From assembly GCA_019118445.1 (NCBI GenBank), contig DWYY01000175.1, positions 1-41,665 on the forward strand: 41,665 nt of DNA, given 5' to 3'. Under the pieces are notes generated by a model. The model was not told the DNA's origin, did not search any database, and was given only the letters and a program-made list of their open reading frames with translations. Below, one piece after another: positions 3,873 to 41,538 of the stretch (the first letter of the stretch is position 1; each line of letters starts with the position of its first letter). The translations under genes were made by a program, and so were the position numbers. This stretch comes from Candidatus Eisenbergiella merdipullorum (GTDB lineage Bacteria; Bacillota; Clostridia; Lachnospirales; Lachnospiraceae).

Positions 3873-4586
3873 TTATTTATTCTTGTTCACGATACGGCTT
3901 TCCCAGGTACCGTCCTCGATATTGATATAGCGGACAAACAGGGACACCTTGTTTTCTTCATTCAGGCTGTCCCAGAGCATCTGCGTGAATTCGTCGATCT
4001 CTCCCGCGATCTTCACAGGCTTAGGCTCTCCCTCAAAGCTGGGAAGAGGATTTCCGTCATGCATATAGGTATGAATGAACCGTCCCGTACCGGGCGCAGG
4101 ATTTTCATAGGCAAAGGTGAAGCGGCAGCAGGAATCCGGACAGCCGCCGTCACTCTTCAAAATGGACATGGCGAAGTTGAAACCGCCGTTTTCAATATGC
4201 ATGATCCCGGAAATCCTAGGGGTATAATTGGGGCCGTCCGGCTCAAATTCACGGCTTCTCAGGGTCTGTTCAAAGGTGAGCTGCTTGTCCATTCCCTCGT
4301 AAATGGTATCGGTCTGATCGCCGTTGGTGACGATGGTCTTATTTCCCAGAACGCGGACAGGCGCGTAAATGATCAGGCTGGGGTCTTCCAGCTTCGCCTC
4401 ATCGAAAGCCTGTGTGCGGATTCCGTCCCCATCCTCCACGAACACCCGGTTGCGGCTGTTGGCGCTTCTTCCCATGATAAAATAGGCCGCAACAGCCCGC
4501 CTTCCGTCAGGCGTCCTTCCAAGGACGATCCCTCTGCCCGGATAGGCGTTGCCTTTCAGTTCTTCTTCCAGTGATAACAGCTTCAT
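3873..4586 (-). CDS. purO: PurO-type IMP cyclohydrolase
   Basis: A 237-residue protein resembling archaeal-type IMP cyclohydrolase (PurO), which closes FAICAR to IMP. Recognisable blocks are NAYPGRGIVLGRTPDGRR near the N-terminus, AYFIMGRSANSRNRVF, YAPVRVLGNKTIVTNGDQTD and a C-terminal FVRYINIEDG. The open frame extends upstream to 4709 through repeat sequence. I chose the ATG at 4586 because GGAAGGAGAGG lies just before it and the protein then begins MKLLSLEEEL. Its position directly before the transformylase lacking a cyclohydrolase domain, and downstream of a ZTP riboswitch, supports the function. Assignment is by family resemblance, not structure. Confidence 0.85.
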   Translation of the reverse strand: MKLLSLEEELKGNAYPGRGIVLGRTPDGRRAVAAYFIMGRSANSRNRVFVEDGDGIRTQAFDEAKLEDPSLIIYAPVRVLGNKTIVTNGDQTDTIYEGMDKQLTFEQTLRSREFEPDGPNYTPRISGIMHIENGGFNFAMSILKSDGGCPDSCCRFTFAYENPAPGTGRFIHTYMHDGNPLPSFEGEPKPVKIAGEIDEFTQMLWDSLNEENKVSLFVRYINIEDGTWESRIVNKNK

Positions 4587-4589
4587 TTC

Positions 4590-4709
4590 CTCTCCTTCCT
4601 GCCGCCGAACGGCGGCATTTAAATAATGAGGAATTGGACGTAAGTCCAATTCCCAGGAGAAAACCGCAGGTTTTCTCCGCCTCTCCTTCCTGCCGCCGAA
4701 CGGCGGCAT
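4590..4709 (-). repeat. Composite hairpin-SD element R1 (purO leader)
   Basis: Read on the minus strand, two copies of a 29-bp unit (4590-4618 and 4681-4709, period 91 bp) each carry the hairpin TGCCGCC-n4-GGCGGCA followed by a GGAAGGAGAG Shine-Dalgarno. Between them lie two perfect 10-bp palindromes: 4656-4665 with 4669-4678, and 4630-4639 with 4644-4653. The gene-proximal unit supplies the purO ribosome site. Elements R3 (33211-33314) and R4 (40768-40895) have the same architecture. Confidence 0.8.
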
Positions 4710-4765
4710 CTAAAATACGGCGGTATTGCAGCACGGACTCACAGTCCGCGTTTTTGATTTACTGC

Positions 4766-4811
4766 AAAAAATAAAAACCGCCTGGTTACTCATCTGTGGG
4801 TACCCAGGCGG
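4766..4811 (-). terminator. ZTP riboswitch expression-platform terminator
   Basis: On the minus strand CCGCCTGG (4811-4804) pairs with CCAGGCGG (4785-4778), followed by TTTTTATTTTTT (4777-4766). The 5' arm is the conserved CCGCCTGG segment of the riboswitch, so ligand binding and termination compete for it. Confidence 0.85.
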
Positions 4812-4866
4812 CCGGTTTCCTTCATACATACTCCCTGTGGTGCTCCACTGATCCGCCAGTCATATG
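4799..4866 (-). ncRNA. ZTP (pfl) riboswitch
   Basis: On the minus strand the segment GACTGGCGGATCA starts at 4861. It is followed by the GTGGAGCACCAC hairpin, a linker with CAGGGAGT, and the conserved CCGCCTGGGTA block (4811-4801). These are the two conserved halves of the pfl motif, which binds ZMP/ZTP. Its target, AICAR formylation and IMP formation, is the step that consumes ZMP, so substrate accumulation would switch on the genes. This is well established for the class. Confidence 0.92.
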
Positions 4867-4889
4867 TACTGCTGTCTTTTTCTATCTGT

Positions 4890-13740: not shown

Positions 13741-13745
13741 AATTT

Positions 13746-15259
<1,514 letters not shown>

Positions 15260-15266
15260 CTAATCT

Positions 15267-15351
15267 CCTCCTTTTTGCCGCCGCAGGCGGCATCGTAAAT
15301 CATGAAAGAATGGCATATGCCATTCTCAGGTGCTGCCCTGCGGTCCGCACC
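15267..15351 (-). repeat. Composite hairpin-SD element R2 (guaB leader)
   Basis: Read on the minus strand, an imperfect stem (15351-15329, GGTGC/GCACC ends with a GCA loop) is followed by the perfect 18-bp palindrome GAATGGCATATGCCATTC (15325-15308). After a 15-base spacer comes the hairpin TGCCGCC-TGC-GGCGGCA (15292-15276), joined by AAAA to AGGAGG. The layout matches R1, R3 and R4 but with different stem sequences, and no second SD copy is seen upstream. A further GTCCGC/GCGGAC hairpin sits at 15384-15400. Confidence 0.7.
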
Positions 15352-15426
15352 TCGGGTTCTTTTGTTCTGAGTTTTCCCGCCGCGTCCGCGGAGTGCGGAC
15401 ATCTGCCGGAAAACGATGAATATAAA

Positions 15427-32344: not shown

Positions 32345-33205
32345 TCACCTGTGAAGCGTAGATTTCCTCATGATGATCTTCCAGGACAGTCCGGTCCCCA
32401 CATTATAGGCTCTGGCAAAATTACCCTGATTGATGGCGACAGCCATGAAGTCCAGGCTGTTCACATACACAAGCGCCTCTCCGATATACGCTTCCGCAAA
32501 GGAGTGGGCATAGATCAGGGAGGTGCGGTAAACGGTGCGGCCTCTCTTTTCAATGATGACCTCCACCCGGTCTCCGTAGGAAACGCCCAGCTTCAGGAAC
32601 ATCTCCCTAGGGATGTTGGTCCACAGGCTTCCGAACCGCACGTCCAGCACGTCGATGGTGCCGGTGATCTCATCGCCGGAAAGCACGGCAGGCTCATAGG
32701 CGATCTCCACCACGCTGTCCACAGGCACCTCGGGTCCCACGCCCTCAAAATCAATGATCCCTGCTGCAAGCCTCGCTCCCGTATAGGCGTAGATATCGCG
32801 GCCGTGGAAGGTATAACTCTCTCCGGAACCGGGGAGCCGGTTAATGGACTCGTCGATCACCCTTGCCGCCTTTATGCCGCACAGATGCTTCACATGAGTC
32901 AGCGTGCCGTTGTCCGGGGTCACCACGTACTGTCCGCCGCAGGTCTGTACCACGATGCTTCTTCTGGTGGAGCCGACGCCGGGATCTACAACGGATACGA
33001 AAACGGTTCCCTCCGGCCAGTAGCTCACCGTCTGGATCAGCCGGTAGGACGCCTCCCAGATATCATATTGAGGGATCTCATGCGTCAGGTCCGAAATCTT
33101 CAGTTCGCTGCACACTGAATAGGCCACGCCGTACATGGCGCTCACCGCGCCGTCAGCCCTTCCGAAATCCGACTGAAAAATAAGCGGTTTTAACTGATTC
33201 TCCAT
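32345..33205 (-). CDS. SAM hydrolase (SAM hydroxide adenosyltransferase, DUF62 family)
   Basis: A 286-residue protein of the family that cleaves S-adenosylmethionine with hydroxide, giving adenosine and methionine, related to the fluorinase and chlorinase. Visible motifs are FQSDFGRADGAVSAMYG (substrate Asp near residue 12), ISDLTHEIPQYD, FVSVVDPGVGSTRRSIVV and TPDNGTLT. The frame continues upstream through element R3 to 33316, but the ATG at 33205 directly follows GAAGGAGAGGTAAAT and starts the normal N-terminus. It lies between glgX and hisC. Its purpose beside a SAM methyltransferase (two genes downstream) could be SAM turnover; that is inference. Confidence 0.9.
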   Translation of the reverse strand: MENQLKPLIFQSDFGRADGAVSAMYGVAYSVCSELKISDLTHEIPQYDIWEASYRLIQTVSYWPEGTVFVSVVDPGVGSTRRSIVVQTCGGQYVVTPDNGTLTHVKHLCGIKAARVIDESINRLPGSGESYTFHGRDIYAYTGARLAAGIIDFEGVGPEVPVDSVVEIAYEPAVLSGDEITGTIDVLDVRFGSLWTNIPREMFLKLGVSYGDRVEVIIEKRGRTVYRTSLIYAHSFAEAYIGEALVYVNSLDFMAVAINQGNFARAYNVGTGLSWKIIMRKSTLHR

Positions 33206-33210
33206 ATTTA

Positions 33211-33314
33211 CCTCTCCTTCTGCCGCCTTTGGCGGCTCTGTATTCCGGTGAAATTGGCCGACAGGCCAATTTCCAGGATGAAATCCGCAGGATTTCATCC
33301 GCCTCTCCTTCTGC
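33211..33314 (-). repeat. Composite hairpin-SD element R3 (SAM hydrolase leader)
   Basis: Read on the minus strand, the SD segment GAAGGAGAGG occurs at 33311-33302 and 33220-33211 (period 91 bp). Between the copies lie the palindrome GGATGAAATCC-TGC-GGATTTCATCC (33300-33276) and GAAATTGGCC-TGTC-GGCCAATTTC (33273-33250), then the small hairpin GCCGCC-AAA-GGCGGC (33236-33222) attached to the gene-proximal SD. The two-palindrome core is nearly identical to that of R4. The core also contains an in-frame ATG (MKSCGFHPGNWP) that reads into the downstream gene. Confidence 0.85.
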
Positions 33315-33324
33315 ATTTTTCTTT

Positions 33325-40018: not shown

Positions 40019-40044
40019 ATGCCGCCTGCGGCGGCAAAAAGGAG
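40019..40044 (+). repeat. Hairpin-SD unit R5 (livF ribosome site)
   Basis: TGCCGCC-TGC-GGCGGCA (40020-40036) is joined by AAAA to GGAG, six to eight bases before the livF ATG. These 26 bases are identical to the unit in front of guaB (minus strand, 15293-15268), an unrelated gene 25 kb away. No palindromic core accompanies it here. Confidence 0.85.
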
Positions 40045-40050
40045 AATCTC

Positions 40051-40761
40051 ATGGCAATGCTCACCGTAGAAAATCTGAATGTATATTATGGCATGATCCA
40101 CGCTCTCAAGGACGTGTCTTTTCATGTAGACGAGGGCGAGATCGTCGCCCTCATCGGGGCGAACGGTGCGGGAAAAACCACCACCCTGCAGACCGTCAGC
40201 GGCATGCTCCAGGCGAAATCCGGCTCCGTACATTTTGAGGATCAGGATATCACAAAGTTCCCATCCCACCGCATCGTGCAGCTCGGTATCTCCCACGTGC
40301 CGGAGGGACGGCGCATGTTCGCCAATCTGACCGTTTATGAAAACCTCCGGATGGGAGCATATACCCGTAAGGATAAAAAAGAGATCGAGGAATCCCTCGC
40401 CAGGGTTTACGAACGGTTTCCCCGGCTGAAGGAGCGTACCAGGCAGCTTGCCGGAACTCTGTCCGGCGGCGAACAGCAGATGCTCGCCATGGGACGGGCG
40501 CTGATGTCCAACCCCAGGCTGCTGCTCCTGGACGAACCCTCCATGGGCTTATCCCCCCTTCTCGTCTCGGAGATTTTTGATATCATCGAAAAGATCAGCA
40601 AACAGGGCGTCACCATCCTCCTGGTGGAACAGAATGCGAAAAAGGCACTCTCTATTGCTGACCGGGGCTATGTGCTGGAAACCGGAAGCATCGTAATGGA
40701 AGACAGCGCGCAGACGCTTCTGAACAACGAAGATATCAAGAAAGCCTATCTGGGCGAATAA
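40051..40761 (+). CDS. livF: Branched-chain amino acid ABC transporter ATPase LivF
   Basis: A 236-residue ABC ATPase. Walker A is GANGAGKTT (about 34-42), the signature is LSGGEQQMLAMGRAL, Walker B is LLLLDEPSMGLSP, and VEQNAKKAL has glutamine-asparagine after the usual switch position, as in LivF. It is the last gene of the livJHMGF operon. The gap to livG is 39 bp and holds hairpin-SD unit R5, which could tune LivF translation relative to LivG. Confidence 0.95.
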   Translation: MAMLTVENLNVYYGMIHALKDVSFHVDEGEIVALIGANGAGKTTTLQTVSGMLQAKSGSVHFEDQDITKFPSHRIVQLGISHVPEGRRMFANLTVYENLRMGAYTRKDKKEIEESLARVYERFPRLKERTRQLAGTLSGGEQQMLAMGRALMSNPRLLLLDEPSMGLSPLLVSEIFDIIEKISKQGVTILLVEQNAKKALSIADRGYVLETGSIVMEDSAQTLLNNEDIKKAYLGE

Positions 40762-40767
40762 AATAAA

Positions 40768-40895
40768 TAAAATGCTGCCCTTTGGGCAGCGGGAAGAAGA
40801 GGCGGATGAAATCCGTCGGATTTCATCCTGGAAATTGGCCTGCCGGCCAATTTCTCTGAATAAAATGCTGCCCTTTGGGCAGCGGGAAGAAGAGG
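40768..40895 (+). repeat. Composite hairpin-SD element R4 (cytidylate-kinase-like gene leader)
   Basis: A perfect 35-bp direct repeat (40768-40802 and 40861-40895, period 93 bp) carries the hairpin GCTGCCC-TTT-GGGCAGC followed by GGGAAGAAGAGG. Between the copies lie GGATGAAATCC-GTC-GGATTTCATCC (40803-40828 region) and GAAATTGGCC-TGCC-GGCCAATTTC (40831-40854). The second copy provides the ribosome site for the gene at 40900. The core differs from R3 at only a few positions, mainly in loops. Confidence 0.9.
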
Positions 40896-40899
40896 AAAT

Positions 40900-41538
40900 A
40901 TGTCAAAAGTGATCATCACCATCGCGCGTCAGTATGGCAGTGGCGGAAAAACCGTGGGGAAAATGCTGGCAAAGGAGCTGGACATTCCCTACTATGACCG
41001 GGAGATCATCGCTATGGCCGCAGAGGAAAGCGGCGTGAATCCCACGCTTTTCCAGGACGAATTCAAACATCACAGCCTGCGTGCTCTGCTCTCCGGCGGT
41101 TATAAGGGCAGCCGCATCCTTTCCCCAGAAAGCGCCGGTTTTACCAGCGATGATAATCTGTTCAACTATCAGGTCAAGATCATCCGCACTCTGGCGGAAG
41201 AAGGCTCCTGCGTGATCATCGGCCGCTGCGCGGACTATATCCTGAAGGATATGCCAGGCGTCATCCGGGTATTCGTCCACGCCCCGGAGGATTTCTGCCT
41301 GCAGGAGGCGATGAAGGTCAACAGCCTCCCGGAAGGAGAAGTGAAAAAGCTCATCGCAAAGACCGACGACTACCGGGCCAGATATTATAAGTATTATACC
41401 GGGCAGGAATGGAAAAACGCCCTGAACTACGACCTTTCCCTTGACAGCTCCAAGCTGGGCTTTGCCGGAACGGTAGAGGCTATCAAGAGTTATATCGAGG
41501 TACGGAAACGCTTTGATGAAGAGATGAAGGGGGCATAA
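40900..41538 (+). CDS. Cytidylate-kinase-like protein
   Basis: A 212-residue P-loop protein of the cytidylate kinase-like family (PF13189-type). It begins MSKVIITIARQYGSGGKTVGK with the nucleotide-binding loop at about 11-20, then LDIPYYDREIIAMAAEESG. The RCADYIL and FVHAPEDFCLQ blocks correspond to the Arg-rich and core strands, and DYRARYYKYYTGQEW is the lid region. It is not the housekeeping Cmk; members have unknown substrates. AAGAGG lies four bases before the ATG, in the R4 element. A strong terminator follows. Confidence 0.85.
   Translation: MSKVIITIARQYGSGGKTVGKMLAKELDIPYYDREIIAMAAEESGVNPTLFQDEFKHHSLRALLSGGYKGSRILSPESAGFTSDDNLFNYQVKIIRTLAEEGSCVIIGRCADYILKDMPGVIRVFVHAPEDFCLQEAMKVNSLPEGEVKKLIAKTDDYRARYYKYYTGQEWKNALNYDLSLDSSKLGFAGTVEAIKSYIEVRKRFDEEMKGA

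Follow-up and report, generated by a model that had tools for sequence, protein, structure and literature searches.

A modular palindromic repeat at ribosome sites in a genus of Lachnospiraceae, probably Eisenbergiella

Unrelated genes in Candidatus Eisenbergiella merdipullorum have leaders that contain a palindromic repeat. The repeat is real, modular and present throughout the genus; it lies at ribosome sites and retains a Shine-Dalgarno (SD) sequence before the start codon. One of its modules is constant, a GC-rich hairpin (TGCCGCC-loop-GGCGGC) with a purine-rich SD sequence after it. This hairpin-SD is found singly or in arrays of the form hairpin-SD (core hairpin-SD)n, n ranging from 1 to at least 3; a core consists of two palindromes and an AT-rich tail of about 60 bp in all, and the arrays have a period of about 90. 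On balance, and with somewhat more confidence than doubt, we take the element to be a modular chromosomal repeat of the translation initiation region, mosaic and non-autonomous, that duplicates the ribosome site. Small non-autonomous palindromic repeats are already known, and what is unusual here is the constant part.

Three leaders of one plan

The window, meaning the whole stretch of 41,665 nucleotides that was analysed (contig DWYY01000175.1), holds three such leaders, R1 before purO, R3 before a SAM hydroxide adenosyltransferase gene and R4 before a cytidylate-kinase-like gene. A preliminary description had given the three one plan in a single orientation relative to the gene, with periods of 91, 91 and 93, and direct reading together with a repeat search confirmed this: hairpin-SD, palindrome A, palindrome B, AT-rich tail, hairpin-SD, start codon. 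Each leader lies immediately 5′ of the start codon and is oriented with the gene. R3 is the exception to the plan, since its left side has the SD part alone and no hairpin. The description had assigned an SD unit to the left and a hairpin-SD to the right; an SD part does stand on the left in all three, but the left copies of R1 and R4 carry the hairpin as well. The R4 repeat is perfect, as claimed, at a length of 37 bp instead of 35. Window coordinates are as follows.

40766-40895, plus strand: whole R4 leader, perfect 37-bp direct repeat, period 93
40766-40802, plus: R4 left hairpin-SD copy, hairpin 40774-40790, then purine-rich SD (repeat search, hairpin scan)
40804-40828, plus: R4 palindrome A, GGATGAAATCC arms (reading, repeat search, model building)
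40831-40854, plus: R4 palindrome B, GAAATTGGCC arms (reading, model building)
40859-40895, plus: R4 right hairpin-SD copy, hairpin 40867-40883 (repeat search, hairpin scan)
4589-4714, minus: whole R1 leader, 35-bp repeat, 97% identical, period 91
4680-4714, minus: R1 left (upstream) hairpin-SD copy (repeat search)
4630-4678, minus: R1 palindromes A (4656-4678) and B (4630-4653) (reading, model building)
4589-4623, minus: R1 right hairpin-SD copy, hairpin 4600-4617, 5′ of the purO ATG at 4586 (reading, repeat search, hairpin scan)
33203-33316, minus: whole R3 leader, period 91, palindromes A and B of the same kinds
33302-33314, minus: R3 left SD copy, no hairpin, 13-nt SD part, GCAGAAGGAGAGG (reading, flank alignment)
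33250-33300, minus: R3 palindromes A (33276-33300) and B (33250-33273) (reading, repeat search, model building)
33211-33236, minus: R3 right hairpin-SD, hairpin 33222-33236, 5′ of the ATG at 33205 of the SAM hydroxide adenosyltransferase gene
15266-15353, minus: partial copy with two other palindromes, tail and hairpin-SD, hairpin 15276-15292, no left hairpin-SD, model E-value 2.3e-6
40020-40036, plus: lone hairpin directly 5′ of the SD of an ABC-transporter ATPase gene (livF-like, ATG 40051) (hairpin scan)

The right hairpin-SD of R4 ends 4 nt 5′ of the ATG at 40900 of the cytidylate-kinase-like gene. The downstream genes are unrelated, as first described, and Pfam bears out the names they were given: IMP cyclohydrolase (purO), SAM hydroxide adenosyltransferase and Cytidylate_kin2, to which Pfam adds the ABC ATPase and, after the partial copy, IMP dehydrogenase. 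That no named family fits also held up, as no Rfam family reaches its threshold on the window element; across the window only a T-box leader (382-672) and a ZTP riboswitch (4795-4873, upstream of the R1 element before purO) do so. At the end of the IMP dehydrogenase gene there is, in addition, a 29-nt repeat (13745-13773 and 13801-13829, 90% identity, 56 bp apart).

Dispersal through the genus

A blastn search with R4 found 8 places in the genome that contains the window (the own genome), R3 among them at E 1.2e-20. The first covariance model, built from 7 copies, gave 78 matches there at E<=1 and 37 at E<1e-4, the latter being the 7 model-building copies, 1 antisense overlap and 29 further places, or about 36 places in all; model E-values of R1, R3 and R4 are not counted because these copies helped to build the model. 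Chance does not account for the likeness, given the R3 match, the 29 further places and the flank alignments described below. At E<=0.001 the same model matched 13 of 61 genomes, that is, all 13 of the genus (own included; the genus is probably Eisenbergiella) and 0 of the 48 outside it, which were 24 of the family and 24 of the order. There were 1-3 matches per genome in the large genomes G001, G003 and G012 and 21-61 in the other ten. The preliminary description had named a covariance-model scan of the genome and of other Lachnospiraceae as its check, with the finding of only these copies as the contrary outcome; copies lie well beyond the window.

A second model of 85 units, searched at E<=1e-4 against 348 genomes of the family, matched 8, two of the genus and six from other genera, a count in which misses are likely because only 12 candidates per genome were scored under strict filters. 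By reading, two of the six (G288, G336) have the full plan with quite different palindromes and one (G252) has the full plan minus the left hairpin; the matches in G078, G208 and G353 are weak. Exact patterns matched Candidatus Eisenbergiella (two), an uncultured Eisenbergiella and an uncultured Lachnospiraceae bacterium. Spread by phages or plasmids was rejected as an explanation, as viral contigs gave 0 matches to three exact patterns and plasmids and phages gave no blastn match to R4.

The hairpin pattern TGCCGCC-N3to5-GGCGGC, counted on both strands so that some sites are counted twice, occurs 84 times in the own genome and 49-223 times in nine others (125 in G002, 49 in G011), one genome alone thus having 223 matches. 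The counts in G003, G012 and G001 are 4, 2 and 5, against 4, 3 and 0 for a control pattern. For G005, 38 hairpin sites were taken in the order listed, two that were already known being skipped, and a script placed 29 of them in sense, 5′ of a purine tract and an ORF start; by eye, about half of the sites stand alone and half have a core. The three large genomes have the element at one and the same gene (L048, L049, L050), apparently by descent, and its loops differ across species and agree within the locus in two of the three. In G011, an element with near-perfect flanking copies (L047:1470-1600) lies 5′ of a ribosomal protein L30-like gene, as judged from the translation by eye.

Placement and composition of the units

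From matches of about 40 bits or more, 129 distinct units were collected after same-place repeats, antisense overlaps and weaker matches had been dropped; L059, L060, L097 and L100 are outside this list though their matches exceed 40 bits. Another listed unit follows next downstream in 18 of the 129, which leaves 111 array ends. Counting ORFs that have at least 50 codons or run off the end of the stretch, a start lies at most 30 nt downstream of 108 of these ends, for 104 of them at 2-8 nt, and the other three run into a further core; in the control, an opposite-strand ORF start was near the left end in 10 of 111. The core begins with GCGG in 94 of the 129 units. In L129, L150 and L113, immediately upstream (in gene direction) of the listed unit, a hairpin is separated from its SD by a single palindrome of the GCACGAAC type, which is either a shorter insert or a decayed core. 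An upstream leader peptide encoded in the core was also considered and rejected: reading showed an ATG after the internal SD in GGATGAAA-type cores alone and in none of the GGAGAAAA, GGGAAAAG or GGCACGAA core types.

The left flank of a unit resembles the hairpin-SD on its right. Alignment scores over the 129 units had a median of 22.5 against the own right copy and 12.0 against 40 random other loci, with scores of at least 25 in 45% and 1.5%, respectively. The own right copy beat all 40 others in 70 units and did not in 59. Flanking repeats no shorter than 24 nt and no less than 96% identical were present in 30 of the 129, with a median of 30 nt.

The cores vary, whereas the hairpin-SD is constant. 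Different core families stand between matching hairpin-SD copies of one array in L145, L165, L115 and L098, and the arrays L026, L114 and L157 consist of nearly identical units. Between unrelated loci of one genome, 16 of 1,249 unit pairs had a core identity of 0.90 or more, the best being 51/51 for purO and L013 in the own genome; in these 16 pairs the hairpin-SD identity averages 0.75 and that of the flanks 0.48-0.50. Median core identity was 0.84 for orthologs (194 pairs) and 0.65 for unrelated loci of one genome.

Stems that covary with almost no wobble

In an alignment of 85 units, which leans to the model structure, 98.1% of 2,210 cells were standard pairs, with 479 double changes and 41 mismatches. 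The 2,169 standard pairs included 16 G-U pairs. For comparison, a single stem of the ZTP riboswitch that precedes purO in this genus had 16 G-U in 88 cells, a small control of eight pairs and 11 sequences in which one pair accounts for 10 of the 16. Selection for RNA pairing is expected to leave wobble pairs, and a DNA palindrome need not have them. Because the covariation is nearly free of G-U pairs, the stems appear to be kept as DNA, and a lack of wobble in covarying stems may be a mark by which DNA palindromes can be told from RNA structures.

A cis-regulatory RNA common to many genes, whether a riboregulator or a protein-binding leader, would account for the position in the 5′ leader and for the sense direction. 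The R4 leader does fold strongly as RNA (z -5.4), and its two hairpins are also able to pair with one another, enclosing the core; since the element's hairpins are self-inverse, the ends of the element are able to pair. Stems also vary less than loops (49 of 1,147 pairs against 112 of 310 bases), in a contrast biased by taking stems as perfect by construction and keeping those at least 70% alike, and for the same reason the absence of one-sided stem changes is no evidence. Such an RNA would need helices that tolerate G-U pairs, and the 16 in 2,169 found here, against 16 in 88 in the small ZTP control, led us to reject it in its structured form. The wholesale replacement of the core family at one gene, the unrelated genes downstream, the presence and absence between orthologs and the lack of an Rfam family at threshold on the window element also argue against it, so that we regard a regulatory RNA of any kind as improbable.

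Orthologous leaders differ in presence, core type and number

At the kinase gene, a single type-1 core is present in the own genome and in G007, types 1 and 2 together in G004 and type 2 in G006, the type-2 core being the GGCACGA.. / AAGAACGGC.. family. A single hairpin-SD stands before the gene in G009, in G008 and in a second copy in the own assembly (C44); G005 has one palindrome and a hairpin-SD, and G012 and G001 have neither. Matches in G002, G003, G010 and G011, at 38-41% identity, were not taken as orthologs. The own assembly thus has two ABC ATPase - cytidylate-kinase loci, L079 (G000:C44:5660-6289) and window 40051-41538, whose kinase proteins are 92% identical and of which only one has the element; the C44 locus may be assembly contamination because its leader, by reading, nearly equals that of G008.

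At purO, cores are present in the own genome, G006 (with no left copy), G007 and G008, and G005 has two different cores, the extra one being a type-2 core between near-identical copies (24 nt, 96%) that is absent from the other four. G004 has a single hairpin-SD. The element is absent, with at most a weak hairpin, from G001, G002, G003, G010, G011 and G012, and G009 gave no match. At iscU, the own genome is the only one of the 13 with the element, and a few others have degenerate palindromes. The ABC ATPase gene has a bare SD directly after the stop codon in G012 and G001, and in the other genomes read it is preceded by a hairpin that is alone or decayed, or by one palindrome, in some cases accompanied by a hairpin (9 of 10 loci read).

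The creatinase/prolidase-family gene has three hairpin-SDs and two cores in both G008 and G006, one core being common to the two; the other eight orthologs have neither hairpin-SD nor core, and G004, G009 and G011 gave no match. In G008 a type-2 core that is absent from G006 lies between hairpin-SD copies identical over 30 nt; one substitution and one indel separate these copies from the first hairpin-SD of G006, and more changes separate them from the third. This is the cleanest-looking case of a gain with exact duplication, with loss in G006 possible too because no third genome has the array. Since G006 carries an extra core of its own at this gene, the direction of single events is read from few genomes; and since most other genomes lack a clear hairpin at iscU and the creatinase-family gene, hairpin and core may have been gained there together or in an order that cannot be seen.

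In a midpoint-rooted tree of three genes, G009 falls beside G007 and G004 next to both. Given these placements, the single hairpin-SDs of G009 at the kinase gene and of G004 at purO, which look like hybrids of the left and right copies, are most simply explained as precise losses, and we consider such losses probable. The tree also groups G002 and G011 with the three large genomes despite their 125 and 49 hairpins, so that loss in the large genomes is as possible as gain elsewhere.

Flanking copies are homogenised within a locus

Among 83 ortholog unit pairs, 36 were dropped for a left repeat score under 15 and 47 were kept. Mean identity in the 47 was 0.89 between left and right copies within a locus, 0.82 between left copies and 0.85 between right copies of orthologs; the within-locus value was the higher in 38 pairs, the lower in 8 and tied in 1. 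The copies at one locus therefore change in concert, or else tandem duplication and loss renew them. Because homogenisation within a locus can mimic a target duplication, flank identity alone does not prove one, and the initial reading of the flanks as a pure target duplication was weakened to a lesser claim: flanking repeats of about 30 nt and one clean-looking gain suggest a duplication like that of a MITE, yet homogenisation also occurs.

This bears on a rival in which there is local turnover only, as in a minisatellite, and an old leader array of hairpin, palindromes and SD grows, shrinks and is homogenised by slippage and gene conversion gene by gene, with no transposition. The nearly identical units of L026, L114 and L157, the core type mostly common to orthologs and the within-locus identity above that of orthologs are all as this would predict. 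It fits poorly with the different core families between matching hairpin-SD copies (L145, L165, L098), with near-identical cores at unrelated genes whose hairpin-SDs differ, and with elements at genes where most other genomes lack the hairpin. We consider turnover of this kind unlikely as the whole account, while giving it real weight.

The copies at a locus are, most likely, mostly inherited and homogenised. The preliminary description had said that the element looks mobile or actively copied and had taken descent of the same sequence at each gene as a refutation. A dispersed non-coding element, present and absent between orthologs, is what the comparison of orthologous leaders found, together with core swaps and the probable precise losses; "actively copied" is too strong for most copies, and the mobiliser search described below found no enzyme. 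Descent is half of the truth. Most copies at one gene within the genus seem inherited, but none of the orthologs recovered from G001, G003 and G012 for the five genes compared has the element, and the type and number of cores vary from species to species.

Discussion

Under the reading that we favour, of a mosaic chromosomal repeat that duplicates the ribosome site, the most likely course begins when a core, or a core with one hairpin-SD, enters at a ribosome site. The insertion would leave a hairpin-SD copy of about 30 bp on both sides, and the downstream copy would keep an SD at the normal distance from the ATG, so that the host gene should stay translatable. Units could afterwards multiply in tandem and be lost precisely through recombination between hairpin-SD copies, which would be kept alike within the locus. 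The palindromes would be maintained at the DNA level, through a single-stranded hairpin, a cruciform or template-switch correction, and not by an RNA fold. These steps suggest a possible route by which selfish DNA enters leaders harmlessly and reshapes translation starts across a genus, and the filled and empty sister pairs that occur naturally could be used to measure the effects of leaders on expression.

No gene was seen in the element, which is taken as non-autonomous. The search for a mobiliser covered the Y1 transposase and Cas1, within the limits of incomplete assemblies. Y1_Tnp (PF01797) was found in 6 of the 13 genus genomes (own included) and Cas1 in 8 of 13, neither tracking copy number. 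In 27 loci fetched with Y1 or Cas1 genes, 12 arm motifs gave scattered single 7- to 9-mers and no paired arms.

It is conceivable, at rather long odds, that the hairpin-SD is a dedicated integration site at which the bacterium or a hidden enzyme acquires diverse two-palindrome cargo, duplicating the ribosome site each time. If true, this would be a repeat-cargo system like a CRISPR or an integron at the translation starts of dozens of genes.

Comparison with known systems

CRISPR arrays have a partly palindromic repeat of about 30 bp that is constant within a locus and alternates with variable inserts of regular length, and the element shares each of these traits. It differs in that each array has few units, a genome has dozens of loci, the inserts share a plan of two palindromes and there is no link to Cas1; R4 matched a CRISPR repeat model at 20.2 bits against 37. 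Arrays driven by Cas1 were set aside, since Cas1 does not track the element in these incomplete assemblies. Site-specific acquisition at the hairpin-SD of the CRISPR or integron kind, with the variable palindromic cores as cargo between repeat copies, would explain why the arrays alternate repeat and cargo, the cargo being variable and flanked on either side by a constant repeat of about 30 bp. We nevertheless think it highly improbable: the cores follow a fixed plan, unlike random spacers, the repeats differ between loci, Cas1 is absent from G003, G005, G006, G007 and G009, the last four of which have many copies of the element, and we know of no common integrase for such a site.

TD-2 RNA (RF03162), which we take to be a Treponema denticola motif, gave sub-threshold matches of 39.8 and 37.9 bits (cut-off 48.7 bits) to the antisense strand of L115 (708-791) and L145 (800-882). 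The likeness lies in a CCGCC hairpin, a spacer of about 14 nt, a long palindrome, a short gap and another long palindrome. Only these 2 of 25 distinct element loci scanned matched, and R4 did not, so that we note the match as no more than a lead that could link another described motif to this element type. In the portions seen of a paper on 104 motifs (PMC2864571), TD-1 and TD-2 are not mentioned. The repeat itself is not described in the titles and abstract openings covered, a literature set to which subscription papers mostly do not belong.

REP, BIME and REPIN sequences are, in the sections available of PMC8266576, short dispersed extragenic palindromes with many copies, mosaic arrays and hairpins that act as DNA, and as far as that account goes the element likewise has dispersed palindromes, many copies, mosaic arrays and hairpins at the DNA level; tagged palindromes are treated in PMC3733652, likewise consulted in part. 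These common traits would fit a REP/BIME family of small palindromes moved by RAYT (TnpA-REP) or another Y1 single-strand transposase. The element, however, lacks the GTAG tag (0 of 129 units in the stretch that starts 8 nt ahead of the core and ends 6 nt inside it), has its flanking hairpin-SD copies in direct and not inverted order, the asymmetric SD part included, lies at a ribosome site in the sense direction and does not conserve the sequences of its core palindromes. Nor does a Y1 transposase follow it: Y1_Tnp was not found in G002, G004-G008 and G011, seven genomes with 21-61 model matches each in assemblies 81-97% complete, and no paired element arms lay beside the Y1 genes fetched. 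Of the origins weighed here, we hold this to be the least probable.

Pneumococcal BOX elements (boxA-boxB-boxC) are modular with a variable number of middle modules, and BOX and RUP occur in few species, are presumed non-autonomous, are overrepresented between convergent genes and have terminal inverted repeats and target duplications, according to the excerpts seen of PMC3049150. Judged by these descriptions, our element is similar in being modular (as is BOX), confined to few species and presumed non-autonomous, with the difference that its constant module is a ribosome site and its middle is hypervariable. Unlike REP and BOX, as those sources portray them in the parts at hand, it is located where genes begin, in an arrangement that leaves the start site intact.
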